A program made the position numbers and the translations under genes. From assembly GCA_036925085.1 (NCBI GenBank), contig JAUPFP010000003.1, positions 3,215,001 to 3,279,000 on the forward strand: DNA of 64,000 nucleotides, written 5' to 3'. The stretch comes from Brachycybe producta (taxonomy: Eukaryota > Arthropoda > Diplopoda > Playtdesmida > Andrognathidae). The notes under the pieces were generated by a model that saw only the letters and a list, made by a program, of their open reading frames with translations, had not been told where the DNA came from and made no database searches. Within the stretch, counting starts at the first letter, position 1, and each line of letters begins with the position of its first letter. Shown here one piece after another: positions 11,807-52,836 of the stretch.

Positions 11807-12125
11807 CTATACCTTGTACACAGTCATGAGTTTAAATGAATTCAAATTAAAAGTGTTTAGGGTGAATTATACGGAATCCAGTTAAGGACATGAACTAAAT
11901 AAAAATTGACTTTAATTATTAATATTTGAAATTGAAATACTAAATCAATATTTTTGCCAATCATTTATTAAAATTTAATTATTAAGTATTAACTCAATAT
12001 TTTCAGATTAAAAACTGAATATATTGAATTCGACATATTGTTTGTTTGTCCTTCACAGGGCTCTGTAGAAACACGTTTATTATTTAATTGCATTTAAATT
12101 ATCAGGTGTGTTTACTAGGTATTAA
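11807..12125 (-). repeat. family B copy, inverted
   Basis: It runs from ATACCTTGTACACAGTCATG through ATCCAGTTAAGGACATG and CCTTCACAGGGCTCTGTAG to CTAGGTAT. About 315 bp; no open frame. Confidence 0.85.
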
Positions 12126-16027: not shown

Positions 16028-16330
16028 ATACCTAGTAGACGCCTGATAATTTAAATGCATTTAAATAATAAACGTGTTTCTACAGAGTCCTGTGAAGGAC
16101 AAACAAACAATATATTGAATTTAATTAATTCAGTTAATAATCTGAAAATATTGAGTTAATATTTAAATATATAAACTATTGACAAAATATTGATTTAGTA
16201 TTTCAATTTTAAAATATTAATAATAAAGTCAATTTTTATTTGGGTTCATGTCCTTAACTGGATTCCGTATAATTCACCTATAAACACATTTAATTTGAAT
16301 TCATTTAACTCATGACTGTGTACAAGGTAT
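16028..16330 (+). repeat. family B, first of a head-to-tail pair
   Basis: It runs from ATACCTAGTAGACGCCTG to GTGTACAAGGTAT, about 303 bp. The next copy starts one base later at 16332. Confidence 0.88.
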
Positions 16331-16331
16331 T

Positions 16332-16454
16332 ATACCTAGTATACACACCTGATAATTTAAATGCATTTAAAATAATAAACGTGTTCTACAGAGCCCCGTG
16401 TAGGACAAACAAATATATCAAATTCAATTAATTCAGTTAATAATCTGAAAATAT
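16332..16454 (+). repeat. family B, second of the pair, left part
   Basis: From ATACCTAGTATACACACCTG to CTGAAAATAT, where the LTR retrotransposon begins. The rest of this copy resumes at 27935. Confidence 0.9.
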
Positions 16455-17302
16455 TGTAACATCCCCGTTTCCGTCGGGTTAGTAGAGTGATCTCTGCTAG
16501 CCATCTAGAAGTGTCGAGTGGATGTTGATGATTAAGTCTTTCGGTCTATTGGCTCCTGTGTTGCTACTTAACCACCAGGGACACAAGGGTCGGTACCTCA
16601 GGAGACCTGTGGTAGAGAATATTGTAGAGATGTCGTCTTACACTCGGCTGCTGGAGACTTCGTTGTCCGGTGGAAACATCGGCTACGTGGCGGCTATAAT
16701 TCTAAGTCCCACTCCCATAAAATGACTGAGTCCACACATTGAATTCGTATGATGAAAATGCTCTTTTATTCAATAAACAGAGAGTCCTGTAGATTGAGAG
16801 ATATCGCATCGGTCTTAAGCATAAAGACGGTCTGTCCGATCTGCCTGATCTATCCGATCTGTCCTCTCAATCTACAACCTCTTGTATTTATACTCCAAAT
16901 ACAATATAAACATCTGATTATGATAACAAAGGCTCCAGGTGTGTCCAAGTCTCTTGGACACACTCGGACCTAGAAGTGAACTATCACTTGACAAGAAAAC
17001 GAAAACATCTATAAGATGTATAAATTATAACAATACAGAAGGATGTACGATCATCCTCCTATTAACAATTTGTAAAGATTCTCACGTCCAAAAGTTCTGC
17101 ATCGATGGTTCTTCTAGGATCTATCCTATTAACCATCGATGTAGTACTTTTGGGCTATTCTTCTCATCTTGGAGGGCAGGGAGTCATCGTCGTAATGACC
17201 TCCCGGCCACCCCCAAGCATGAGGTGAGAACCTTTCATCGATACAACTTGATTACAGGGTGTTTACAAAAACGGACGAATTCCAAACGGTGAATTCGTTA
17301 CA
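16455..17302 (-). repeat. 3' LTR of the retrotransposon
   Basis: 848 bp, bounded by TGTAAC...GTTACA, a 6-bp inverted repeat. It appears base-for-base identical to 27087-27934 (constant offset 10632; the short open frames in both are the same). On the minus strand TATAAATA at 16892-16885 and AATAAA at 16770-16765 give a promoter and a polyadenylation signal about 115 bp apart. That places U3 in roughly 17302-16860. Confidence 0.95.
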
Positions 17303-17308
17303 CCCCCC
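17303..17308 (-). other. polypurine tract next to 3' LTR
   Basis: On the minus strand AACTAGTTGGGGGG abuts the LTR start TGTAAC. A G6 tract directly at the LTR edge is the expected plus-strand primer site, although it is short. Confidence 0.7.
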
Positions 17309-17747
17309 AACTAGTTTAAGAGTACGTCCCTGTACTCTCAAAAAGCTAACTATTAAAAATACCCGTTGGTATAAAAATCTATACGATAAAAATTATAAAT
17401 CCCGTTGGATAATAAAATTTAAAAATCACAACTCGTGATATTAATAGCATCTCGCTATTTTAAAAATTCCCGCTTGGAATTAAAACAATTCTAAAAATTG
17501 ACAAATAGGCGAAAACCTATCAAATTACAAAAGGGACAATCCCCTAATATAAAAACTTCTATAACAACGCAGGCAACTGCCTTAAAAACTACGAAAAATT
17601 CTAGACAACGGTCTATAAAAATAAATGCGAACGTGCATTAAAAATACAAAATACAAAAGTATAAAACACAATACTTAAAATACTAAAACAAACGAACGAA
17701 CAAGTATACAGGCGATACTTGTGAAGAATCGGTTCACTTTCCGTAAC
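17309..17747 (-). other. non-coding 3' region of the retrotransposon
   Basis: About 440 bp of AT-rich sequence between the pol stop and the purine tract, with no long frame. Confidence 0.7.
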
Positions 17748-20700
17748 CTAATATTCCGCTTCAGCCCATCCGTTGGCAGGACTCTCGGGACTTCTTCGGA
17801 GGGCTCCTTCTAAGATGATGGCAGCGTCCGATGACCCTCTGCACTGTCGGTAGCTCCTGCGACCCTCCGCATAGCTAGTGGCAGCGTCAAATAATAGGTG
17901 GGGTCGATCATCATGAAAATGCGGACAGCGTACGGGACGTCCTGTCAGGCGAATGCTGGCCTGCGGACTCCACTGTAGAAAAGTGCGTGTCCACTTCATG
18001 ATTCCGTCTTCGACCTCCCGGATTCTGATGTCTTCTTCGTAATGAAAGACCATGATGTCTCGGTGCTCTACAGCGATGACGAGGATGGTGGGCCGGCTGC
18101 AGACAACCAGTCCGATGAGAAAGGTCTTCGGACCTTTCGGGATACGGTTTCTTGGCGGTGTCTCATCCCATTCGAAGAGCCCCAAGTAAAGCTGATGTCT
18201 CGGCGTCCTTTTTCGCTGCCAGTGTACACAGAGATTGTTCAGCGTGGTCTCATCTCCTCTGGTACTCCGGTGTGGATGCGCGATGTTCCTGGGGCCTGAA
18301 GTCTCCATGGAGTCCGTTGGAGTCTTTACTACAGACCCCAGGCGCTCCTTTACTGGTCTCTTCGGTATGGCCCCTGTCGCTTGACTTGGTTCTATCTTGG
18401 GCTCGTCGGTCGTCTCCATTTTTGTTTCTGATCCAACTTTGATGGTCACAGGAGACGTTATGGAAGCCCTAGGACTCCCAGGAGCTTCCTTATCGCTCCT
18501 GACGGTAGTCTTTGGCTCCATCATCGTGATGTCATCTCGGTATAGCCCTGACTCACGAGGGCGGACATCTCTCAATACGACGGTATTCTTCGGCGCTTGA
18601 TGAAAGAAGCTTTTTACTTCCGATCTCAATTGGGTTCGCAGGCCCCTGCTGGGCCGGTTTCGCTCGACGAGAGGCCTTGGCTGCCTCCAGCGCCGAACTC
18701 CGCGGACCAACAGGTCTTCTGTGGGGCCCGAGTTGCCAATTTCGATTGGAAGGGCGGTCCCCTTACAATCCATAATGCGGCCGTCGTATAATATGATACG
18801 CTCCCCATCAAAGGTTTCGTAGACCTGATCCACCAATGCCAACCCTCGGAGGTGGTACTCGACCGCGATGTCGACCAATAACCTCAGCTGCGCATGGTAG
18901 TTGTCTCTTGGATCCTCCATGACGGTAATTTCTTTATGTTCTGAAGTCGCGAGTTTAGCATATATCTTGGGAGGAGGAGGAACAGCGGTTTCAACTCCTC
19001 TGGCCTCTTCTTCAGGCCTGGCCCCTGGGAGCTCCTCATCATCGGTGTCGATATACAGGACATCGTTGTCCTCGTCATGGGTATTTCGAATGGTGATGAC
19101 GGGTCCCTGCGTCAGACTCTCGACGACTCTTTTTGGAGGGAGGTGGGCATCGCAGGACTCCGCGAGCCCTGCCTCTCGACGCTTCTTTGCCTCCCTGTGT
19201 CGCTTGCTCAGCTTATTTTTCTTGCGCTGATTAGGTTCGATGACAGGAGCGGCTGCAGGACATTCTACTGGAGCAGGTCTTTTTAGAGTATGGAGGCGGT
19301 CCTTCGTTTTGACGGCTTCCGGCTCTACCAACTCCTGATATGCCTTCTCTGCATCTTTCAGGGCTTGGCTTCTGGGCACATACCGCCCTTTACTGTCCCA
19401 AATCTCATTTAGACTTCTGTGTGGGACGGGTGGTCTGTTCCTACGACCGTGGCGCTCCCAATCCGCAGGGGTCCACTCGCTGGTGTCGTTTGGATCACCT
19501 TCTTTGCCCCAGTTCTTTGGTTCTGCGCCTCCGGGAGCAAACTCTCCGGGTCTGATGGCGTTAAAGAAGTTGGGCTGACCGGCCCCGACGACTCCTGGCA
19601 GAATCTTTTCCGACTGCCGCTTCTTTTGTTGCTTAGTCAGGCTTGGAACAATCGCGTGGTCCCATAATCCATCTTCGATCTCTTTTTCCAGCGCCACTGC
19701 TGCTGTATCGAAGATCAGCTTGGATCCGCCTTCTATCGGCACGATGGAGCTTGGTCTGATTTCGTTTTGCCGTTCAAAATATCGTCCTCTTTTGTGGGCA
19801 CGACCCTGCAAGGTGGGCCCACGGACACCGTGACCCCAACCCTGCCTGGTAGTGGCCACTTCTTCGTAGAGATTCTCCAACGGCGACTGCATAGTCGTAC
19901 TTCTTTTCGAAAAAGACAAAGGAAAAGTGTTTGGATCTCGGAGCCCGAAATTTACATGCTTTTCTTGGCTCCTTCTTACCTCTTTCGATCCATCTTTAGA
20001 TTTTTCCTCGTTCTCTTTGTTGAAGATTTGCACAAACAAAATAAAACTCCCGATATTTTTCGCGATTAAAGAAAATTTACTCGATGTCTTCGTGAAACAA
20101 TCCAAATAAAAACGATAACGCTTCGAAAAATGGCCGATAACGGTAAAGAAGTCTAGGATATGATAAAGATGCCAAAAAATAGTGCCGGTACATGTGGATA
20201 GCACATGGGCACAACTGTCAGTTGTGAAGAAGATAAACAATAGGACCCGGATCCATAGTGGTGCGAGGCTAGTAGACATTTCACTTAATGTATCCCTCCG
20301 CCCACGTGTTTCTTCTATGCTTGGTAGCGTCATTGACCGCTCCCTGTTTACTTCCTCATTTGGGACGTCATTTCCATCTGTGGCGTCACTAGCATCGATA
20401 TCATCGTCCATTTTTGTTGTTTCATCGATAACTTCCGCGTTTTTCACCTCCATTTGAAATTCCATCGGCGAATTTACATCTTTTTCGTCGATTTTCATCG
20501 TTTCTTTAGGAATTTCGCTGATTTCTTCAACAAATCCAATGGTTTCCATGGTAAAATTCGTCTTGTTACCATATTCTCTGGTGAATTTCATCGCATCTTC
20601 GCCAGGTAAGTATGAGAACTGCTGCTGGTTATCGTCTGCTGCCATTTTTCTTCTAATTTCGACGTTACGGTCAGAATGCTTTCGGATTGCTTTCGTAATT

Positions 20701-23700
20701 ATCTCAATTTCTTCTTCATCCTCAGAAGATTCGATCCAAGCATTTTGGCATCTGCAGTGTCCACAACATCTCTTCTTACGCGAAGGTAAGTTTTTCTTCT
20801 TGACAAACGCTGTCATTTCTTTTTCTTTTACAGGTTCCGATTCGGATTCTTCTGGCGATGAGTTACCCATGGACTCCAGGGTGTCTCCAGTCGTTGGAAC
20901 ATTGGGTCCGTCCTTTTGGTAAGTCTCATATAGTGGTCTCAGGTTTGCAACGTTTACAGAGTCCTCCACTAATCTTCCAGCTCGATTCTCGTAACTCAAT
21001 CGGTATACGGTGTCCGATACTTTCGACACAATCGTATATCCCTGTCTCCATTTTGTTAAGAACTTCTTGTTCTGTCCAGGCCTGATTCGCATGTCTCGTA
21101 CAAGTACTTTCTGTCCGATTTGGTACTCGTAAGGCTTCTTATGCCTTTGGTCGTAGTACTTCTTTCGACGATCATGTGCTGCTTTCAGGTTCGCCCTGGC
21201 TGTTCTTAGTTCTTCTTCTTGGCGTTCTTCCGCCTGTTGTCGAACATCCACGAGGTTTCCTGCCTCGTTATCCACAATAACTGGTCGTTCTGGAACTAAG
21301 GTGTCTACTTTAGTTCTGGGCTCCCTCCCAAACATGAGTCTGTACGGCGTAAACTTTGTGGATGAATGTACAGATGAGTTGTACGATTCCAAAACTTCAT
21401 CCAGTTTTGTAGCCCAATCAGTCTGGTTCTTCGCAGGAGTCAGATACTTTTTCATAGTCTGAATAATGCTTTTATTCGTCCTTTCGGCGAGACCATTACT
21501 TTGCGGATGGTAGGCAGTTGTTGTTTCGTGCTCTATCTTGTTTATTTCCAAGAATTCTTGAGTGTTCTTCGCAACAAACGGCGTCCCTCGATCCGAAATG
21601 AGTTTCTCTGGTATCCCGAAGATTCTCTTTACGTCTTTTGATAGGAAGTTCATTACGATTAGTGCGGTTGTGCTTTTTACTGCTTTAGCAACGCAATATC
21701 GAGTGGCGTAATCGACTGCCAGCAAGATATGCTTGTTTCCTCCAACCGACGGTACTAATGGTCCAATGAAATCCATTCCCCAGCAATCACAAGGCTTTCC
21801 AATGGGCATTTCTTGAAGGAACCCTTCAGGTTTCTCCGTACCCAGCTTGTGTAATTGACAAATCTCACATGAGCGCACATATTCGAATATGTCGTGCTTC
21901 ATGTTATTCCAATAAAATCTTTGCCTGGCTCTATTCCAGGTCTTAGTTTGTCCCTCATGACCAGCATCGGGCTCGTCATGGCATAATCTCATTACTTCTG
22001 GGATGAGATGTTTTGGCACCACATTCACGAGTGTGGGTACGGAACTTCCGTGAAACACACAAGCGAACAACTTGTTGTCGTAATCGCAAAACAACTTATG
22101 AAGAGGTGACTCTGGTTGGTTACGCAACTCCTCACGAATCTTCAAAATCTCGGGGTCCAATTTTTGCTCCACCTTCCAATCCCATTGTAAGGTTACATTA
22201 AAGATCACACTGTCATCTAGGTCTTCCGCTTCTGGGATGGCCTTCCAGTTAACAGGCACTCCTGCTGGATATCTTGAGAGGCAATCGGCTTCGATGTGAA
22301 GTTTCCCCTCCTTGTAGATGATTTTGTAGTCGTACTCCTGCATTAGCAGCTGCCAGCGACCAAGTCTTCCTTCTAGACGTGCTGCAGTTTTCATGTAGCA
22401 TAATGCGTGGTGATCCGTCACAATTGTAAAGGGCTTCTGGAACAGGTACGGCCGGAACTTGGTGACTCCATAGATTACTGCTAGGCACTCCTTATCCGTC
22501 GTACTGTAGTTCTTTTCCGCGTCCCTTAGAACTCTGGAGACACTTCCAATGATCTCCTTTCTTCGTTTATCCTCTGACTTCTGGTAAAGCATCGCTCCAA
22601 TTCCGTATCCACAGGCATCAGTATGCATAAATATTGCAGCCTTCGGATCATATACGGCAACCAATGGAGATTTCGACAACATATTCTTTAGCGTGCGGAA
22701 TGCATTCTCGCAATCAACTGACCATTCGAACGGTATATCTTTACCCGTCAGGTCTGACATTGGCTTCGCTATGTTGGCAAATCCAGGTACATGCTTTCGA
22801 TAATAACCCGCCAATCCAAGGAAACTTCTGATTGCGGTTACATTGTCAGGAACTGGGAAGTTCTTTATGGCGACAACCTTATCTGGATCTGGCCGAATTC
22901 CATCAGGCGAGATCAGGTGTCCCAAATACTTCACTTCTTGGAATCCAAAGAAGCATTTCATTGGATGCAACTTCAGGTTTGCTGTCCTCAGCAGGTCCAA
23001 GATAGTTCTCAGTCTTTCCAAAAATTCTTCGAACGTTCTTCCAAACACTACGATGTCGTCAAGGTAGACAAGGCACGTTTCCCATTTGTGCCCGGCGAGT
23101 AGGATGTCCAATGCACGTTGCATAGTGGCAGGAGCGTTTCGGAGTCCGAAAGGCATTCTTACGAACTCGAACAATCCTCGATGAGATGTAAATGCGGTCT
23201 TCTCGATGTCGCTTTCTTCCATCTCGAACTGCCAGTATCCACTCTTCATATCCAGCGTTGCGAAGTAGCATGCTCCTCTCATGGAGTCTAATGCATCATC
23301 AATCCTCGGTAATGGATAAGTGTCTGCCTTTGTAATCGCGTTCAACTTCCGATAATCTACACAGAAACGGTAGGAGCCATCCTTCTTCTTTACAAGGACG
23401 ATGGGCGATGCATACGGCGATTTCGATGGCCTTACAACCCCAGATTTCTTCATCTCCTCTAGCGTCTCATCAATTACGATGCGTTCCCCAGGCCCGCATC
23501 TTCGTAACGTGTCTCGAACAGGTAAATTATCTCCAGTTTCGATCTTGTGTTTGGTCAGATTCGTAGCTCCCAGGTCCTTAGATGAAAAGGCGAAGATCGG
23601 TTGGAACTCCTTCAGTAGGATCGTCAACTCTTCTCTTTGATCATCTGTCAGTTCAGGACCAAGTTGAATTTCTTTTTCAAAATCAACGGGTGCTTCTCCG

Positions 23701-25436
23701 ATGTCTCTAAAGTTTTCCTCTTCGGAAACTTTGCAGGCTTGCTCCTCTTTTAGTTCTTCTAGAAGTTCGAAGTGTCCAATAGTCTCGCGGTCTCCAATCC
23801 CCACGGACTCCAGTGTGGTATTCAGGAGTTGGACTTCCAGTTGTGATGTCCCATTCCCTTGTAGCACACTGCTGGCCACAACGATGCCTTTTCTATTAAA
23901 GAGACTATCGTTCGTTTCAATCATGAGTACTTCGTTTTCCTCAATGATTCGCCCTGCAGCTACTTTGAGGTTCAAAGCCTGGCCCGGATTTAACGTAATC
24001 CTTCCTTGGGCTTTTACGCAGCTTTCCTCTCTAGCTTTTATGGCATAGGAGTTATCCAGATGGCTATTCTGAGCACATCCCTCCTCTTTTAACTCTTTGA
24101 AGAAATTCCAGGGAAGGCTACTACGCGCACTTCCTTTCTTCAACAATTCTCGTGTTCCTTCGTAGAACATCTCATTAGCAAAGTAGATCTTGGAGGTCTT
24201 CATGGAAATGATGAGATCAAACGCAGCTCCCAGGTCTCTCCCCAGCAGTGCTTCTCGTTTTCCATCTATGATGAGCATCCTTGCCGTTACTTGCTTTCCG
24301 TTCAACTCGAACGTTGGCCACAACTGACCCAGTACCTTAATCGGTACCCCTCCTACTGCGCCTAATGCAGGTGCGTTCCGGATTGGTCCATATCGAAGTC
24401 CGTACTCTTTGGCCATTGTGCCTGACAAGATAGTGAACCCAGTTCCGCTATCCGCCAAAAATCGAACTGGTGTGCCGTCAACCTGAATGGTAATCTTGGC
24501 AACATTCTCATCGGGCGTAGTATCTCCTACCTCGATGAGTTCGCATGAGGTGAGTAGGCTGTCTACAGTGATTTCGACACTCTTTCGACAACAAGCCCTA
24601 CTCCTCAATAAATCTCCAACTTCAACGGATTCAATAACCTCGCTGTTCGCAGGGATCCTGCTGGTATCATCTCCTCTACCGATAGCTGCATTTACAATAG
24701 CCTTCTTGGATTTCTTAGCATCAGTTTCGGCCTTGCCCGAGGCAATAACATTGGATGTTACATCTTGAGGGATTTCCTGAGCAACATTGCTTATCCCCGG
24801 TATACACGCCGCAGAATTCTGTTGGGTTCTTCCCTCAATTCCGACTGGCACCGCAGAATTCTGTTGGGTCTCTCCCTCAATTCTGTCTTGATTAACTCCA
24901 GTTTCCATGGCTTCCACAATTCTCTTTGCTTCCTCCAAGCTATTCGCGTAAACTACCATAGCTTTCGTAGGTGACCAGATGATGGGTTCCGGAAATATCT
25001 CCTCGATGATTTCTCCCCTTCGACCAGTATCCTTTCGCAGCTTCTTATTTTTTCGTGAATTCCGTTGTCGTTTTCCATTCGTAATGCCGACTAACAACTC
25101 CGACGATTGCTCAGGGAGTCCTTGAGTGTCCAAATCACATGGTCTCTTCGGTGCTCCAGCCTTTGGTCTAGTTGTGGCGACATTCGAAATGCCGACTAAC
25201 AACTCCGACGATTGCTCAGGGAGTCCTTGAGTGTCCAAATCGCATGGTCTCTTCGGTGCTCCAGCATTCCGTCTAGTTTTAGTGACATTGGTAGCTTCGC
25301 TCACGCCCCTATTCCCCCCCAACAAAGCTTTGTCCACAATGTTTTGGGAATTGGCGATCGCTGTTTCGTTTCGATTTTGTCGTTTTCCAGAGGGTTTTCC
25401 GTTCTTAAAGGGCGGTAGGCCCCTCTTTACTGCCAC
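17748..25436 (-). CDS. pol: pol polyprotein with ~1,050-residue C-terminal extension
   Basis: Encodes the enzymes that copy and integrate the element. The frame is 2,562 codons from a GTG at 25436, but no AUG is seen at the start; entry is most likely by -1 frameshifting from gag. Visible parts by residue: protease DSGT at 329-332 with ALLGRD near 397; reverse transcriptase about 640-830 with YLDD at 791-794; RNase H about 925-1050 (TDACGYG, TDHHAL); integrase zinc finger about 1150-1190 ending CEIC; integrase core D1222, D1282, E1318, spacing D-x59-D-x35-E; a KWRQGY...NVANLRPLY module near 1455-1500. Residues ~1505-2562 are not recognised. They hold a Cys cluster (CCGHCRCQ), acidic and basic low-complexity stretches and a hydrophobic stretch near 1725-1800. 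Most Ty3/gypsy pol proteins are about half this length. A 35-residue unit is duplicated near the N-terminus (25083-25292). Confidence 0.93.
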   Translation of the reverse strand: MAVKRGLPPFKNGKPSGKRQNRNETAIANSQNIVDKALLGGNRGVSEATNVTKTRRNAGAPKRPCDLDTQGLPEQSSELLVGISNVATTRPKAGAPKRPCDLDTQGLPEQSSELLVGITNGKRQRNSRKNKKLRKDTGRRGEIIEEIFPEPIIWSPTKAMVVYANSLEEAKRIVEAMETGVNQDRIEGETQQNSAVPVGIEGRTQQNSAACIPGISNVAQEIPQDVTSNVIASGKAETDAKKSKKAIVNAAIGRGDDTSRIPANSEVIESVEVGDLLRSRACCRKSVEITVDSLLTSCELIEVGDTTPDENVAKITIQVDGTPVRFLADSGTGFTILSGTMAKEYGLRYGPIRNAPALGAVGGVPIKVLGQLWPTFELNGKQVTARMLIIDGKREALLGRDLGAAFDLIISMKTSKIYFANEMFYEGTRELLKKGSARSSLPWNFFKELKEEGCAQNSHLDNSYAIKAREESCVKAQGRITLNPGQALNLKVAAGRIIEENEVLMIETNDSLFNRKGIVVASSVLQGNGTSQLEVQLLNTTLESVGIGDRETIGHFELLEELKEEQACKVSEEENFRDIGEAPVDFEKEIQLGPELTDDQREELTILLKEFQPIFAFSSKDLGATNLTKHKIETGDNLPVRDTLRRCGPGERIVIDETLEEMKKSGVVRPSKSPYASPIVLVKKKDGSYRFCVDYRKLNAITKADTYPLPRIDDALDSMRGACYFATLDMKSGYWQFEMEESDIEKTAFTSHRGLFEFVRMPFGLRNAPATMQRALDILLAGHKWETCLVYLDDIVVFGRTFEEFLERLRTILDLLRTANLKLHPMKCFFGFQEVKYLGHLISPDGIRPDPDKVVAIKNFPVPDNVTAIRSFLGLAGYYRKHVPGFANIAKPMSDLTGKDIPFEWSVDCENAFRTLKNMLSKSPLVAVYDPKAAIFMHTDACGYGIGAMLYQKSEDKRRKEIIGSVSRVLRDAEKNYSTTDKECLAVIYGVTKFRPYLFQKPFTIVTDHHALCYMKTAARLEGRLGRWQLLMQEYDYKIIYKEGKLHIEADCLSRYPAGVPVNWKAIPEAEDLDDSVIFNVTLQWDWKVEQKLDPEILKIREELRNQPESPLHKLFCDYDNKLFACVFHGSSVPTLVNVVPKHLIPEVMRLCHDEPDAGHEGQTKTWNRARQRFYWNNMKHDIFEYVRSCEICQLHKLGTEKPEGFLQEMPIGKPCDCWGMDFIGPLVPSVGGNKHILLAVDYATRYCVAKAVKSTTALIVMNFLSKDVKRIFGIPEKLISDRGTPFVAKNTQEFLEINKIEHETTTAYHPQSNGLAERTNKSIIQTMKKYLTPAKNQTDWATKLDEVLESYNSSVHSSTKFTPYRLMFGREPRTKVDTLVPERPVIVDNEAGNLVDVRQQAEERQEEELRTARANLKAAHDRRKKYYDQRHKKPYEYQIGQKVLVRDMRIRPGQNKKFLTKWRQGYTIVSKVSDTVYRLSYENRAGRLVEDSVNVANLRPLYETYQKDGPNVPTTGDTLESMGNSSPEESESEPVKEKEMTAFVKKKNLPSRKKRCCGHCRCQNAWIESSEDEEEIEIITKAIRKHSDRNVEIRRKMAADDNQQQFSYLPGEDAMKFTREYGNKTNFTMETIGFVEEISEIPKETMKIDEKDVNSPMEFQMEVKNAEVIDETTKMDDDIDASDATDGNDVPNEEVNRERSMTLPSIEETRGRRDTLSEMSTSLAPLWIRVLLFIFFTTDSCAHVLSTCTGTIFWHLYHILDFFTVIGHFSKRYRFYLDCFTKTSSKFSLIAKNIGSFILFVQIFNKENEEKSKDGSKEVRRSQEKHVNFGLRDPNTFPLSFSKRSTTMQSPLENLYEEVATTRQGWGHGVRGPTLQGRAHKRGRYFERQNEIRPSSIVPIEGGSKLIFDTAAVALEKEIEDGLWDHAIVPSLTKQQKKRQSEKILPGVVGAGQPNFFNAIRPGEFAPGGAEPKNWGKEGDPNDTSEWTPADWERHGRRNRPPVPHRSLNEIWDSKGRYVPRSQALKDAEKAYQELVEPEAVKTKDRLHTLKRPAPVECPAAAPVIEPNQRKKNKLSKRHREAKKRREAGLAESCDAHLPPKRVVESLTQGPVITIRNTHDEDNDVLYIDTDDEELPGARPEEEARGVETAVPPPPKIYAKLATSEHKEITVMEDPRDNYHAQLRLLVDIAVEYHLRGLALVDQVYETFDGERIILYDGRIMDCKGTALPIEIGNSGPTEDLLVRGVRRWRQPRPLVERNRPSRGLRTQLRSEVKSFFHQAPKNTVVLRDVRPRESGLYRDDITMMEPKTTVRSDKEAPGSPRASITSPVTIKVGSETKMETTDEPKIEPSQATGAIPKRPVKERLGSVVKTPTDSMETSGPRNIAHPHRSTRGDETTLNNLCVHWQRKRTPRHQLYLGLFEWDETPPRNRIPKGPKTFLIGLVVCSRPTILVIAVEHRDIMVFHYEEDIRIREVEDGIMKWTRTFLQWSPQASIRLTGRPVRCPHFHDDRPHLLFDAATSYAEGRRSYRQCRGSSDAAIILEGALRRSPESPANGWAEAEY
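25083..25292 (-). repeat. 105-bp in-frame tandem duplication in pol
   Basis: Two adjacent 105-bp units (25083-25187, 25188-25292) encode the same 35-residue block containing GAPKRPCDLDTQGLPEQSSE. A shorter repeat with TQQNSA occurs downstream in the protein. It lies before the protease in a region without a known fold. Confidence 0.9.
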
Positions 25437-25441
25437 CCTTT

Positions 25442-25451
25442 CTAGTTTAAA
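25442..25451 (-). promoter_or_regulatory. probable -1 ribosomal frameshift site, gag-pol
   Basis: The heptamer T TTA AAC, phased to gag, is followed directly by the gag stop TAG. A -1 slip there continues in the pol frame, which is open from this point. -1 frameshifting at X XXY YYZ heptamers is a known strategy of retroelements. The downstream RNA structure was not evaluated. Confidence 0.75.
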
Positions 25452-27136
25452 TCAGCCGGGTTTTCCTCTTGCAGGAACTTCTTCTGCCCGTTCTCGCTGA
25501 CGACAAAATACTGCTGGCCATTTCTTCCAGTGGCCATTCCATGTTGAACAAGTCCAACGGTTCCATCCGCAACTACTTTCTTTGGGCAGTTTCTTGAAAA
25601 GTGACCCTTCTCGTGACAGTGATAACACTCTACTGTGCTGAGATCTTTCGGGGTTTTACTTCCATCTTGCGTTTGCTGACCATTGTAGTTCTTCTTCTGC
25701 GGATATCTCTGGTTCCATTTACGACCTTGTTGCTGATTCGAGTTCTGGTTGGTCTTCTGTTGCGTTTGGTTATTTGAATTTGATGGAGTCGAGTGGTTCG
25801 TTGGGTCCGCTTGATCTTGAGTAACAACCGCGTAAGAACGTCCTCCGTCCATTACTGCTTGCGTCTGTTTGGCATTTTGGCGTTGGTTATTCTTCTGTGG
25901 ACCCTTGGAGACCTGGGTCGTCGTTTGTTGACCCATCGTTCCTTCCGGTATCCATAACCCATCAGCCATCAAAACTTCCTCGGTATCCTTGATATATGTC
26001 GTGTACAGCTTCAGATTGCTATTCGGCGCATTCTGTGTAGCATTACGTATAATCGGATGAAGTTTCTGCCGAAATTCCACAATCCGGTATTTGTCGGTTA
26101 CCCCCGGTAACACTTTTCTACTCAAGTCAAGGTAGCGACCCAAAAACTGATTGGTGTCCTCTCCTTTCCTTTGGAGCATGGTATCCAACCTCAGCTTCAG
26201 TTGCACTAACTCGTCTCGACGTCCAAATCTTTCAATTAACTCGCTCCGTATGAAGTCCCACGTGGTCTTTCCTCGATTTTCTTTGTAGAAATTGGATAAC
26301 CAACGTACTACGTCCCCTTCTACCGCCTTACGTAGGTAGTAGGTCTTGTGGACGTTGCTCCAGTCCTCCAGATCTGCGATACTCTCGTAGTCCTCCAGAA
26401 AGGTGTATACAGACGTCAATCCTTTGAAGGTCTCCAGATTCCGGAGTGGGTGAAGACTCTTGTACTTCCCATCCAGCTCCTCACAGGTCCGATGACGATT
26501 GCAAATTGGATTTCCTTCCAGCTCTTCTACGCTGGGATCCTCACTTGTTAGGCTTTCATCCTCTAGCTGGTCCGGGTTCTCTCTCCGTCGAATAGGAGTC
26601 TCAGGTAGGCGACCTCTCTGGGTCCCTCCACTCTTCTTCAGCATGAGCGGCGTCTGGAATACATTAACCTGTCTTAGGTTTTCAGCGTGGGCCGACGAGG
26701 GCTCCCCTTCAGTGTCCAATCCAGGAATCACTGTATGACGCTGAGATTCAGCGTGGGCCGACGAGGGCTCCACTCCGGTATCCACTTCTCGGACTACCGT
26801 ATGACGCTGAACTGTACTTACACCACGCCCGCTCCGGAGTAACATCGATCCTGATGGTTGCTGGGCTTCGAACCAGGCCATCAGTCTCTCCCGTCTTTCA
26901 GCACTTAGATTTTGAAGGATACCTTCAAGTGGATCTTCTCCATCCATTTGGTTTGTATCGTCCTTCTCCCGTGTCTTCGACTTCGATTTCGGTCTGCCTT
27001 TCTTTCCTTTACCACCTGGTGTAACTCCGACATCATTGGTATTCTCTACTGGATCTGTAGTGAGGTACCCCGCACCTCCACCATTTTGTAACATCCCCGT
27101 TTCCGTCGGGTTAGTAGAGTGATCTCTGCTAGCCAT
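25442..27136 (-). CDS. gag: gag structural protein
   Basis: 564 residues. It would form the particle that packages element RNA in the cytoplasm. The first ~200 residues are hydrophilic, with a lysine-rich stretch (KGKKGRPKSKSK) and a 22-residue duplication around SSAHAE. Residues ~225-395 read like a retrotransposon capsid (WLSNFY, ELIERFG, FLGRYLDLSRKVLPG). A Q/N-rich linker follows, then one zinc knuckle near 503-516, C-x2-C-x4-H-x4-C (CYHCHEKGHFSRNC). The AUG at 27136 lies in the 5' LTR, so residues 1-16 are LTR-encoded and the primer-binding site lies within the frame. A second AUG (codon 15) is also in the LTR. The stop codon directly follows U UUA AAC. Confidence 0.92.
   Translation of the reverse strand: MASRDHSTNPTETGMLQNGGGAGYLTTDPVENTNDVGVTPGGKGKKGRPKSKSKTREKDDTNQMDGEDPLEGILQNLSAERRERLMAWFEAQQPSGSMLLRSGRGVSTVQRHTVVREVDTGVEPSSAHAESQRHTVIPGLDTEGEPSSAHAENLRQVNVFQTPLMLKKSGGTQRGRLPETPIRRRENPDQLEDESLTSEDPSVEELEGNPICNRHRTCEELDGKYKSLHPLRNLETFKGLTSVYTFLEDYESIADLEDWSNVHKTYYLRKAVEGDVVRWLSNFYKENRGKTTWDFIRSELIERFGRRDELVQLKLRLDTMLQRKGEDTNQFLGRYLDLSRKVLPGVTDKYRIVEFRQKLHPIIRNATQNAPNSNLKLYTTYIKDTEEVLMADGLWIPEGTMGQQTTTQVSKGPQKNNQRQNAKQTQAVMDGGRSYAVVTQDQADPTNHSTPSNSNNQTQQKTNQNSNQQQGRKWNQRYPQKKNYNGQQTQDGSKTPKDLSTVECYHCHEKGHFSRNCPKKVVADGTVGLVQHGMATGRNGQQYFVVSENGQKKFLQEENPADLN
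26681..26812 (-). repeat. 66-bp in-frame duplication in gag
   Basis: The block TTCAGCGTGGGCCGACGAGG starts at 26681 and again at 26747, giving two 22-residue units (RHTV...EPSSAHAE). Confidence 0.85.
27066..27083 (-). other. probable primer-binding site
   Basis: Three bases after the 5' LTR the minus strand reads TGGTGGAGGTGCGGGGTA, which starts with TGG as a tRNA-CCA complement should. The matching tRNA 3' end would be TACCCCGCACCTCCACCA; I could not assign it to a tRNA. Confidence 0.6.
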
Positions 27137-27934
27137 CTAGAAGTGTCGAGTGGATGTTGATGATTAAGTCTTTCGGTCTATTGGCTCCTGTGTTGCTACT
27201 TAACCACCAGGGACACAAGGGTCGGTACCTCAGGAGACCTGTGGTAGAGAATATTGTAGAGATGTCGTCTTACACTCGGCTGCTGGAGACTTCGTTGTCC
27301 GGTGGAAACATCGGCTACGTGGCGGCTATAATTCTAAGTCCCACTCCCATAAAATGACTGAGTCCACACATTGAATTCGTATGATGAAAATGCTCTTTTA
27401 TTCAATAAACAGAGAGTCCTGTAGATTGAGAGATATCGCATCGGTCTTAAGCATAAAGACGGTCTGTCCGATCTGCCTGATCTATCCGATCTGTCCTCTC
27501 AATCTACAACCTCTTGTATTTATACTCCAAATACAATATAAACATCTGATTATGATAACAAAGGCTCCAGGTGTGTCCAAGTCTCTTGGACACACTCGGA
27601 CCTAGAAGTGAACTATCACTTGACAAGAAAACGAAAACATCTATAAGATGTATAAATTATAACAATACAGAAGGATGTACGATCATCCTCCTATTAACAA
27701 TTTGTAAAGATTCTCACGTCCAAAAGTTCTGCATCGATGGTTCTTCTAGGATCTATCCTATTAACCATCGATGTAGTACTTTTGGGCTATTCTTCTCATC
27801 TTGGAGGGCAGGGAGTCATCGTCGTAATGACCTCCCGGCCACCCCCAAGCATGAGGTGAGAACCTTTCATCGATACAACTTGATTACAGGGTGTTTACAA
27901 AAACGGACGAATTCCAAACGGTGAATTCGTTACA
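27087..27934 (-). repeat. 5' LTR of the retrotransposon
   Basis: 848 bp, same as 16455-17302. TATAAATA at 27524-27517 predicts transcript starts near 27490. AATAAA is at 27402-27397. The last 50 bp encode the first residues of gag. Several AUGs lie between the predicted start and the gag AUG, so gag is not the first AUG. Confidence 0.95.
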
Positions 27935-28126
27935 ATATTGAGTTAATACTTAAATTTAATTCAATAAACTATTTCAGACAAAATATTGATTTAGTATTTC
28001 AATTTTAAAATATTAATAATAAAGTCAATTTTTATTTGGTGTTCCTGTCCTTAACTGGATTCCGTATAAATTCACCTAAACACATTTAATTTCAATTCAT
28101 TTAACTCATGTGTGTGTACACGGTAT
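27935..28126 (+). repeat. family B, second of the pair, right part
   Basis: Continues from ATATTGAGTTAATACTT to GTGTGTACACGGTAT. Together with 16332-16454 it makes one family B copy of normal length, counting the ATAT duplication once. Confidence 0.9.
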
Positions 28127-28317
28127 TAAATTAAATTAAGGTTATTTATTTTGTCCACAAAAGATTTTATTTTAAAAACTTCTATAACTCCTAATTAACT
28201 TATAACTCCCATTCTGTCTTTCAGGTGCAAAATGAACAGAAATCTTAAATTGTGTTTTAGAAACTAGAAGGGTAGTTTTATCATTTATGGTGATTTTTAA
28301 AATGTAAAACTAGGGCT
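28127..28317 (+). repeat. spacer with family C fragment
   Basis: CCCATTCTGTCTTTCAGGTG then TTTTAGAAACTAGAAGGGTA marks one family C arm; the mirrored arm is missing. Confidence 0.6.
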
Positions 28318-36532: not shown

Positions 36533-36847
36533 ATACCTAGTACGTACACACCTGAAAATTTAAATGCAATTAAATAATAAACGTGTTCTACAGAGCCCTG
36601 TGAAGGACAAACAAACAATATGTCGAATTCAATTTAATTCAGTTAATAATCTGAAAAATATTGAGTCAATACTTAAATATAATTCAATAAACTATTTGAC
36701 AAAATATTGATTTAGTATTTCAATTTAAAATATTAATAATTAAAGTCAACTTTTATTTGGTGTTCATGTCCTTAACTGGATTCCGTATAAATTCACATAA
36801 ACACAATTAATTTGAATTCATTTAACTCACACGTGTGTACAAGGTAT
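36533..36847 (+). repeat. family B copy
   Basis: From ATACCTAGTACGTACACACC to GTGTGTACAAGGTAT, 315 bp. Keeps an uninterrupted equivalent of the LTR-element target (AATATTGAGTCAATACTT). Confidence 0.88.
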
Positions 36848-36937
36848 AAAACCAGAGCTTTATAGCGCTTTATTTTGAAGTACCTATATGGCTTCAAAGC
36901 TAAAGATTGAGTTAGTATAAAGGTGGCGCTACATGCG

Positions 36938-41410: not shown

Positions 41411-41508
41411 AAACCAGCGCCACTATATTGAAGTACTGGCTTGTTTTAAAGGAACTTGCTTCCAGAGGATGCTGTACATGGGGAACTTTTCATTTTGGAG
41501 AGTTCATA

Positions 41509-41813
41509 ATACCTTGTAACACAGTCATGAGTTAAATGAATTCAAATTAAATGTGTTTAGGTGAATTAGACGGAATCCAGTTAAGGACATGAACCCCAAA
41601 TAAAAATTGACTTTATTATTAATAATTTAAAATTGAAATACTAAACCAATATTTTGTCAATAGTTTATATGATTTAAATATTAACTCAATATTTTCAGAT
41701 TATTAACTGAATAAATTGAATTCGACATATTGTTCATTTGACCTTCACAGGGGGCTTTGTAGAACGTGTTTAATGTTTAAATGCAATTAACTGTGTATGT
41801 GTGTCCAGGGTAT
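41509..41813 (-). repeat. family B copy, inverted
   Basis: From ATACCTTGTAACACAGTCAT to CCAGGGTAT, 305 bp, with ATA on both sides. Confidence 0.86.
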
Positions 41814-49618: not shown

Positions 49619-49855
49619 ATACCTAGTACACACCTGATCGAATTCAATTTATTCAGTTAATTAATCTGAAAATATTGAGTTAATACTTAAATAAAAATAT
49701 AGAAACTATTGACAACATATTGATTTAGTATTTCAATTTTAAATTATTAATAATAAAGTCAATTTTTATTTGGGTTCATGTCCTTAACTGGATTCCGTAT
49801 AATTCACCTAAACACATTTAATTTGAATTCATTTAACTCATGTGTGTACAAGGTA
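49619..49855 (+). repeat. family B copy, internally shortened
   Basis: ATACCTAGTACACACCTGAT joins directly to GAATTCAATTTATTCAG, so about 65 bp are missing. Ends TGTGTACAAGGTAA. Confidence 0.85.
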
Positions 49856-52532: not shown

Positions 52533-52836
52533 ATACCTTGTACACACACATGAATTAAAAGAATTCAAATTAAATGTGTTTAGAGGTGAATTATACGGAA
52601 TCCACTTAAGGACACGAACACCAAATAAAAAATTAACTTTATTATTAATATTTTAAATTAAAATACTAAATCAATCTTTTAATGTTAATAGTTTATATAA
52701 TTTATATTTAAGTATTAACTCAATATTTTGAGATTAATTAACTGAATAAATTGAATTCAACATATTGTTTGTTTGTTCTTCACGGGGCTCTGTAGAACAC
52801 GTTTATTATTTAAATGCATTTAAATTATAAGGTGTG
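52533..52836 (-). repeat. family B copy, inverted
   Basis: From ATACCTTGTACACACACATG to TTAAATTATAAGGTGTG; the far end is decayed. Confidence 0.84.

Follow-up and report, generated by a model that had tools for sequence, protein, structure and literature searches.

The 64,000-nucleotide stretch of the millipede Brachycybe producta analyzed here, hereafter the window (contig JAUPFP010000003.1, positions 3,215,001 to 3,279,000), harbors a long terminal repeat (LTR) retrotransposon on its minus strand, which covers positions 16451-27938 including the target-site duplications. Near-identical LTRs with TG..CA ends, a target-site duplication, and the order protease, reverse transcriptase, RNase H, and integrase identify it as a recently active LTR retrotransposon of the Ty3/gypsy type. 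The two LTRs do not differ at any of their 848 bp, the sole mismatch of the blastn pair falling outside TGT..ACA, and the insertion is therefore recent, as an earlier note made from the sequence of the window had supposed. The pol frame runs on the minus strand from 25451 to 17748 over 2567 codons without a stop, of which ~1,060 lie beyond residue ~1507, again as the earlier note had it. That note treated the extension as a single segment. The extension is indeed real, but it comprises several parts, namely a post-integrase tail, a hydrophobic stretch, an open spacer, and a large C-terminal module that we call X, the two ordered-looking stretches quoted in the note being pol residues 2191-2210 and 1993-2011. 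What a single sequence does not reveal is that X is hypervariable and mosaic while being carried by a homogeneous backbone.

In line with the copy search that the note had proposed, the last 715 residues of pol served as query against the genome from which the window derives (295 Mb, 442 contigs). Out of 974 first-look candidates, the best 62 were scored, a number that is a lower bound. Of these, 60 span nearly the whole query and 58 are free of internal stops; their identity to the query ranges from 58 to 100%, the 58% floor resulting in part from the cut-off. For gag, the best-scored 77 of 2316 first-look candidates are 98-100% identical, the 98% floor likewise being partly due to the cut-off, with frames of 564 residues in 76 copies and 573 residues in one. 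One of the listed X modules lies at the expected distance from 41 of these 77 gag copies and, since 98-100% identical gag and diverged X are found within the same copies, this pairing is independent of the cut-offs of the two lists. An alignment was built from 44 frames, the window and 43 of the first 48 loci (8 from the search and 40 further); L001, which is the window itself, was left out, as were L021, L046, L047, and L048, whose frames are interrupted. The frames were judged open over the retrieved stretch of each copy, which begins near residue 1353 in L002-L008. The C-terminal end of L020 is frame-shifted; this copy was kept in the analyses of 44 frames, where it accounts for one mosaic and, in the last windows, for a type of which it is the only member, and omitted from the 12-sequence table of nonsynonymous and synonymous divergence (pN/pS), from the estimates of the minimum number of recombination events (Rmin), and from the column-entropy analysis.

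Twelve representatives of the 44 frames yield for X a pS of 0.568, a pN of 0.215, and a ratio omega of 0.24, to be compared with a pS of 0.047-0.057 for the integrase segments of the same 12 frames. X is under purifying selection, as measured by the dN/dS test that the earlier note had called for, here at near-saturated synonymous divergence. The many in-frame copies and the omega of 0.24 therefore support X as a protein of the element, the first of the two origins that the note had envisaged, and the 44 open frames and the proximity of X to intact gag agree with it. Among 18 X proteins more than 3% apart, selected from 47, the median identity is 62% and the minimum 55%, and 248 of the 740 columns in the alignment of these 18 types are invariant. 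The nucleotide diversity per 40-codon window amounts to 0.005-0.055 between residues 1340 and 1739, to 0.118 at residues 1740-1779, and to 0.15-0.46 from residue 1780 onwards. Within X, the most variable parts are two blocks at residues 2094-2193 and 2434-2513.

In the variable region, each 40-codon window contains 5-8 allele types (44 frames), and these types combine into 28 mosaics among the 44 copies, or 27 among 43 without L020. Over the backbone (residues 1370-1649), pairs of copies sharing a mosaic are at a distance of 0.0116 (n=36) and pairs with different mosaics at 0.0119 (n=910), whereas the corresponding distances in X are 0.0058 and 0.281. X is thus unlinked to the backbone, and X blocks reassort against it. 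We draw nothing from the Rmin values, namely 18 (residues 1371-1725), 24 (1750-1853), and 241 (1854-2567), since recurrent mutation of saturated positions inflates them. The homogeneity extends to the other end of the element. L049 and L050, two copies with a different X, match the window at 98.8 and 99.4% identity in a 2.85-kb segment that comprises the 5' LTR, gag, and the beginning of pol. On the 3' side, where it is seen in copies with a diverged X, similarity resumes 45-70 nt past the X stop. The mosaics recur at separate places, in groups of 7, 4, 3, 3, 2, 2, and 2 copies, and are therefore not assembly errors; the 3' flanks differ in the group of 7, meaning that this X type inserted repeatedly.

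These same-mosaic groups bear on how the diversity arose. In three of the four groups compared, pS is lower in X than in the backbone (0.0107 versus 0.0426, 0 versus 0.0180, and 0.0014 versus 0.0238). X is therefore not a mutation hot spot, and old alleles have instead moved onto different backbones. A local mutation generator, of a diversity-generating or hypermutating kind, acting on X would account for the confinement of strong variation to one coding region of the compared frames. However, same-mosaic pairs are on average closer in X than in the backbone, the divergence of X is synonymous-rich and constrained, and the lower pS of X in three of the four groups, group C4 being the opposite, largely contradicts such a generator, to which we give hardly any credence. 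As to where the diversity came from, a serious rival explanation dispenses with selection for diversity. Introgression or horizontal transfer would have brought in old, diverged X alleles, which were then recombined onto one expanding backbone. X being younger than the backbone in three of the four same-mosaic groups fits this scenario, and such a history has been reported for the gag gene of Ty1 and Ty1', with a dS of 0.252 and an omega of 0.496 between types (PMC7055915). On the other hand, so many types (5-8 per window) and mosaics (28 in 44 copies) would require many separate entries that spared gag and pol, and in these frames strong divergence begins only past about residue 1740. We consider introgression without selection possible, albeit somewhat doubtful.

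Regarding the parts of the extension that precede X (Table 1), the tail is under weak constraint (pN/pS of 0.64 with the 44 frames taken together), and copies begin to diverge from about residue 1750. The hydrophobic stretch, which we take to be signal-peptide-like, displays the pattern STSLAPLWIRVLLF[IT]FF in 43/44 frames. The ensuing spacer is devoid of in-frame stops in all of its 7 types, as against 6-7 expected per type upon letter shuffling, and its length is a multiple of three in 44/44 frames, only in-frame indels being found. Since the spacer is open and keeps its length modulo three, the ribosome most likely reads through it, even with its amino acids nearly free. A removed intron as the sole explanation of the spacer was rejected on the openness and the length conservation. 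The FGLR codons differ at third positions only among the 7 spacer types, and the motif may be a protease site. Strong constraint starts at the M[QA]SPL motif, which is present in 44/44 frames and located 14-20 residues past FGLR in the 7 spacer types. Shortly upstream of M1854, a pyrimidine-rich stretch is seen in the 7 spacer types, a possible 3' splice or trans-splice site, and GTAAG occurs at -87 in two of the three spacer types scanned for donors; a second, spliced mRNA encoding X is possible from these signals. Inside X, the basic stretch RKKNKLSKRHREAKKRRE is presumably of the nuclear localization signal (NLS) class, and we assign DVL[YF]ID, by assumption, to the SUMO-interaction motif (SIM) class.

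Table 1. Features of the retrotransposon and of its surroundings in the window (residues are those of pol)
Feature	Coordinates	Strand	Residues	Remarks
5' LTR	27087..27934	-		TGTAAC...GTTACA, 848 bp; blastn pair 16451-17302/27083-27934, 99.88%
3' LTR	16455..17302	-		same sequence as 5' LTR
Target-site duplication ATAT, 5' side	27935..27938	-		
Target-site duplication ATAT, 3' side	16451..16454	-		
Polypurine tract GGGGGG	17303..17308	-		precedes 3' LTR
Candidate primer-binding site TGGTGGAGGTGCGGGG	27068..27083	-		just past LTR, within gag reading frame
gag	25442..27136	-		564 aa, CCHC knuckle; ATG within 5' LTR
TTTAAAC heptamer	25445..25451	-		immediately before gag TAG
Protease	24234..24494	-	320-406	PF13975 and PF13650, both slightly under curated cut-off
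Reverse transcriptase	22917..23393	-	687-845	PF00078
RNase H	22332..22724	-	910-1040	PF17919, PF17917
Integrase (H2C2, core, C-terminal module)	20931..22019	-	1145-1507	PF17921, PF00665; C-terminal module by eye
Post-integrase tail	20277..20930	-	1508-1725	near identical among copies; omega 0.64-0.65
Conserved hydrophobic stretch MSTSLAPLWIRVLLFIFF...	20151..20279	-	1725-1767	hydropathy
Open spacer	19905..20150	-	1768-1849	7 types, omega 0.77
FGLR	19938..19949	-	1835-1838	44/44 frames, invariant within nearly free spacer
Module X	17751..19892	-	1854-2567	714 aa; hypervariable, mosaic, purifying selection
Basic stretch RKKNKLSKRHREAKKRRE	19173..19226	-	2076-2093	39-40/44 by pattern
DVL[YF]ID, acidic setting	19047..19064	-	2130-2135	44/44
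Hypervariable block 1 of X	18873..19172	-	2094-2193	mean column entropy (20-residue bins), 0.91-1.26 bits
Hypervariable block 2 of X	17913..18152	-	2434-2513	includes hydrophobic TFLIGLVVCSRPTILVIAV; 1.03-1.36 bits
~300-bp repeat copies	16028-16456, 27934-28130, 36533-36853, 41506-41790, 49637-49855, 52533-52836, 11808-12124			

Upstream of the extension, the TTTAAAC heptamer is in our assumption a -1 frameshift site; a stimulator was looked for downstream of it, where the predicted fold is not unusual (z -0.76). The candidate primer-binding site TGGTGGAGGTGCGGGG resembles what we take to be the complement of the tRNA-Ala 3' end. Between positions 27068 and 27136, the gag ATG and first codons are located inside the 5' LTR and the primer-binding-site-like segment is located inside the gag frame; Ty1 is similar in having the start of gag within its LTR and the primer-binding site within gag. 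The start of pol, upstream of the protease, contains a 105-bp tandem duplication (25076-25285) with copies 92-93% alike. A family of ~300-bp repeats, 85-93% alike, is present in several copies in the 64 kb, and the retrotransposon is inserted inside one of them. An Rfam scan of the window reports no match at gathering thresholds.

The hydrophobic stretch ahead of X and the possible second mRNA call to mind an Env-like surface protein, in which residues 1725-1750 would be the signal peptide, residues ~2443-2461 the membrane anchor, and the variability a matter of receptor choice or interference, as for retroviral Env. Indeed, the signal-peptide-like stretch is kept in 43/44 frames, all ten representatives possess a hydrophobic 19-mer near the C-terminus (mean hydropathy 1.4-2.6), two cysteine columns are common to 29 and 25 of the 44 frames and one NxS/T site to 31, and the pyrimidine-rich stretch upstream of the X start codon could serve a spliced env-type mRNA. 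In contrast, no cysteine is invariant among 15 X proteins, each X contains 2-7 cysteines and 1-4 NxS/T sites with a KR content of 15-16% and a DE content of 13-15% (10 representatives), and X lacks the conserved disulfide cysteines and glycosylation sites by which an Env is recognized. Besides, the C-terminal hydrophobic stretch is interrupted mid-way by Arg or His (12 sequences), the reading frame stays open from pol through the spacer, needlessly so for a spliced env alone, and the Pfam env families return no match with X up to E = 1. An Env-like X is, on this balance, quite unlikely.

The location of X directly after the integrase, together with its conserved SIM-like and basic motifs, suggests another role, as some Ty integrases carry targeting tails. 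X might then steer integration as a targeting domain, and its types would differ in their target. The 3' flanks of eight copies, including the window, were compared; seven of these copies have the X type of the window throughout and one has it from about residue 1880. The flanks are unrelated by eye, blastn having been run against the window only and some flanks matching repeats, which speaks against steering and led us to reject site-specific insertion. Between X types, the comparison of flanks covered two 5' flanks. We find it improbable that X is a targeting domain.

Instead, we propose that X is the last part of a Gag-Pol-X polyprotein, and that it is an accessory protein kept diverse by interference with the host or with the element itself and shuffled by template switching, an explanation to which we give an even chance. 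A -1 frameshift at the end of gag would produce the Gag-Pol-X polyprotein. The accessory protein, ~80 kDa in size, would be cut from it by the element protease, FGLR being a conceivable site, or would arise through internal initiation at M1854. X would be packaged with Pol at the frameshift level and travel in the particle; the variable partner on which it would act might be a host factor or co-resident copies. An advantage of rare types would maintain many old X alleles, and template switching between co-packaged RNAs would move them onto the currently successful backbone. As to the partner, a host factor would be our preferred candidate; alternatives would be chromatin, sibling copies, or, for an Env-like X, a receptor. 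It is unlikely that escape from small-RNA silencing drives the diversity, because gag and pol, ~98% identical, remain targets.

One form of this explanation casts X as the part that confers specificity in a copy-number control by self-interference; an X of a given type, or a fragment thereof, would block particles of that type, and rare types would spread. The coexistence of many X types in one genome and the independence of backbone and X are in favor of it, as is the retention of a piece of X by derivatives in which X is gutted. A precedent is described for Ty1, where p22, a Gag fragment, is associated with divergent gag subfamilies and recombination (PMC7055915); however, the variable part is Gag in Ty1 and a Pol extension here. 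Self-interference taken by itself seems unlikely. More broadly, the family may be pictured, tentatively, as a homogeneous, sweeping gag-pol backbone equipped with a freely exchangeable, ancient, and balanced antigen-like set of X modules, which would be recognition proteins borne by Pol. The type specificity of X would then determine which copies move in the face of interference from the host or from siblings, with X-less copies riding along.

Several observations weigh against the accessory-protein explanation. Among the 77 scored gag copies, 36 are not accompanied by an X in the listed 62, and six of these 36 were examined. Four of the six possess complete X modules, 55.8-57.4% identical to that of the window, and three of these, on three contigs, merge into one type at 97%. 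In the two others, L053 and L057, X is mostly deleted; these copies end in a 465-codon frame, and the adjoining gag is 99% identical to that of the window. Located on different contigs, they exhibit the same deletions and share 98.9% identity as far as the end of the LTR, but their flanks differ. They were thus inserted at separate places, and a copy without a complete X can therefore insert. X is supplied in trans or dispensable for movement, and is not strictly needed in cis. The earlier note had held that copies lacking the segment would argue against it; such copies do occur (2/6), but as deletion derivatives beside many constrained copies. As a separate observation, L053 and L057 possibly represent a derivative line living on complete copies. 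Group C4 also runs counter to the explanation, with a pS higher in X (0.0446) than in the backbone (0.0249), and so does L022/L051, a copy in which the 3' untranslated region is ~74% and the 3' LTR 83-86% identical to those of the window, the integrase protein being 98% identical. LTRs can thus diverge as well and may be exchanged too, in which case X is not the sole exchangeable part.

The searches for relatives, among them the profile- and structure-based ones advocated in the earlier note, belong to the same side of the balance. Pfam, PHROGs, and PDB sequences compared with the extension yield best E values of 0.04-0.95, all judged to be chance, and NCBIfam, a prokaryote library, reports no match for three X proteins. 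Two single-sequence AlphaFold2 models reach pLDDT values of 35.0 and 40.4, too poor to use. With no credible family or structure match, and with the search for a stand-alone host copy covering the 62 scored places, the second origin considered in that note, a captured host segment, gains no backing. An IMG/VR scan gave three pattern matches, none of them confirmed, and the idea that X duplicates gag or the remainder of pol was rejected on hhalign probabilities of 0.5 and 0.1 per cent. Moreover, an omega below 1 indicates constraint, not diversifying selection, and introgression without selection would also gather old alleles. The NLS-, SIM-, and signal-peptide-like motifs are pattern matches.

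With the elements ~98-99% identical elsewhere, the one protein module in which diversity is focused is the probable site of action of selection. This focusing suggests a conflict at the protein level rather than small-RNA silencing, for which the shared gag and pol would be targets just as suitable. The dozens of natural recombinants in one genome constitute material for asking which part of X matters and what X meets. If X is the diversified accessory protein proposed above, the family would show an LTR retrotransposon keeping and shuffling allelic diversity, as viruses do with their envelope genes.

Among the listed titles and abstract openings of open-licence PMC articles, none describes an LTR element whose Pol carries a hypervariable and shuffled extension. 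The element shares with the Ty3/gypsy elements (Metaviridae) its LTRs, CCHC gag, protease to integrase order, and the sites resembling a primer-binding site and a polypurine tract next to the LTRs, and differs from them by the 714-residue hypervariable in-frame module past the integrase and by the gag ATG within the LTR. Several systems also carry a long coding region or an additional protein after pol. In the LTR elements of bdelloid rotifers, this module, ORF3, is often not an envelope (PMC5408684); ORF3s are separate open reading frames, 0-8 bp apart between sequenced clones and the reference (Table 1 of PMC5408684), whereas X is fused to pol and reaches near-saturated divergence within one genome. 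Retand has a long coding region between pol and the 3' LTR, but it consists of antisense open reading frames, as opposed to an in-frame pol extension (PMC11963269). The Drosophila endogenous retroviruses (iERV) with env-F, which are of the gypsy type, likewise encode a third protein past pol; the env-F tree mirrors those of Pol and Gag and argues against env exchange between lineages (PMC12992720), while X is unlinked from pol.

Other systems resemble the present one by their recombination. Family members of ONSEN recombine frequently and pairwise in transposition bursts (PMC5668417), which supplies a mechanism for shuffling; the abstract of that report does not mention a hypervariable module. 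In the Athila elements of Arabidopsis, env and gag modules also reassort between distant lineages, but through four events between families (PMC2410132), as compared with extensive shuffling within one family here. Similar to X, the gag of Ty1 and Ty1' has diverged as a single coding region on a backbone common to both types, is under purifying selection, and forms recombinants. However, it falls into two main types separated by a dS of 0.252 (PMC7055915), while X occupies the opposite end of the element, with 5-8 types per window and a pooled dS of ~1.

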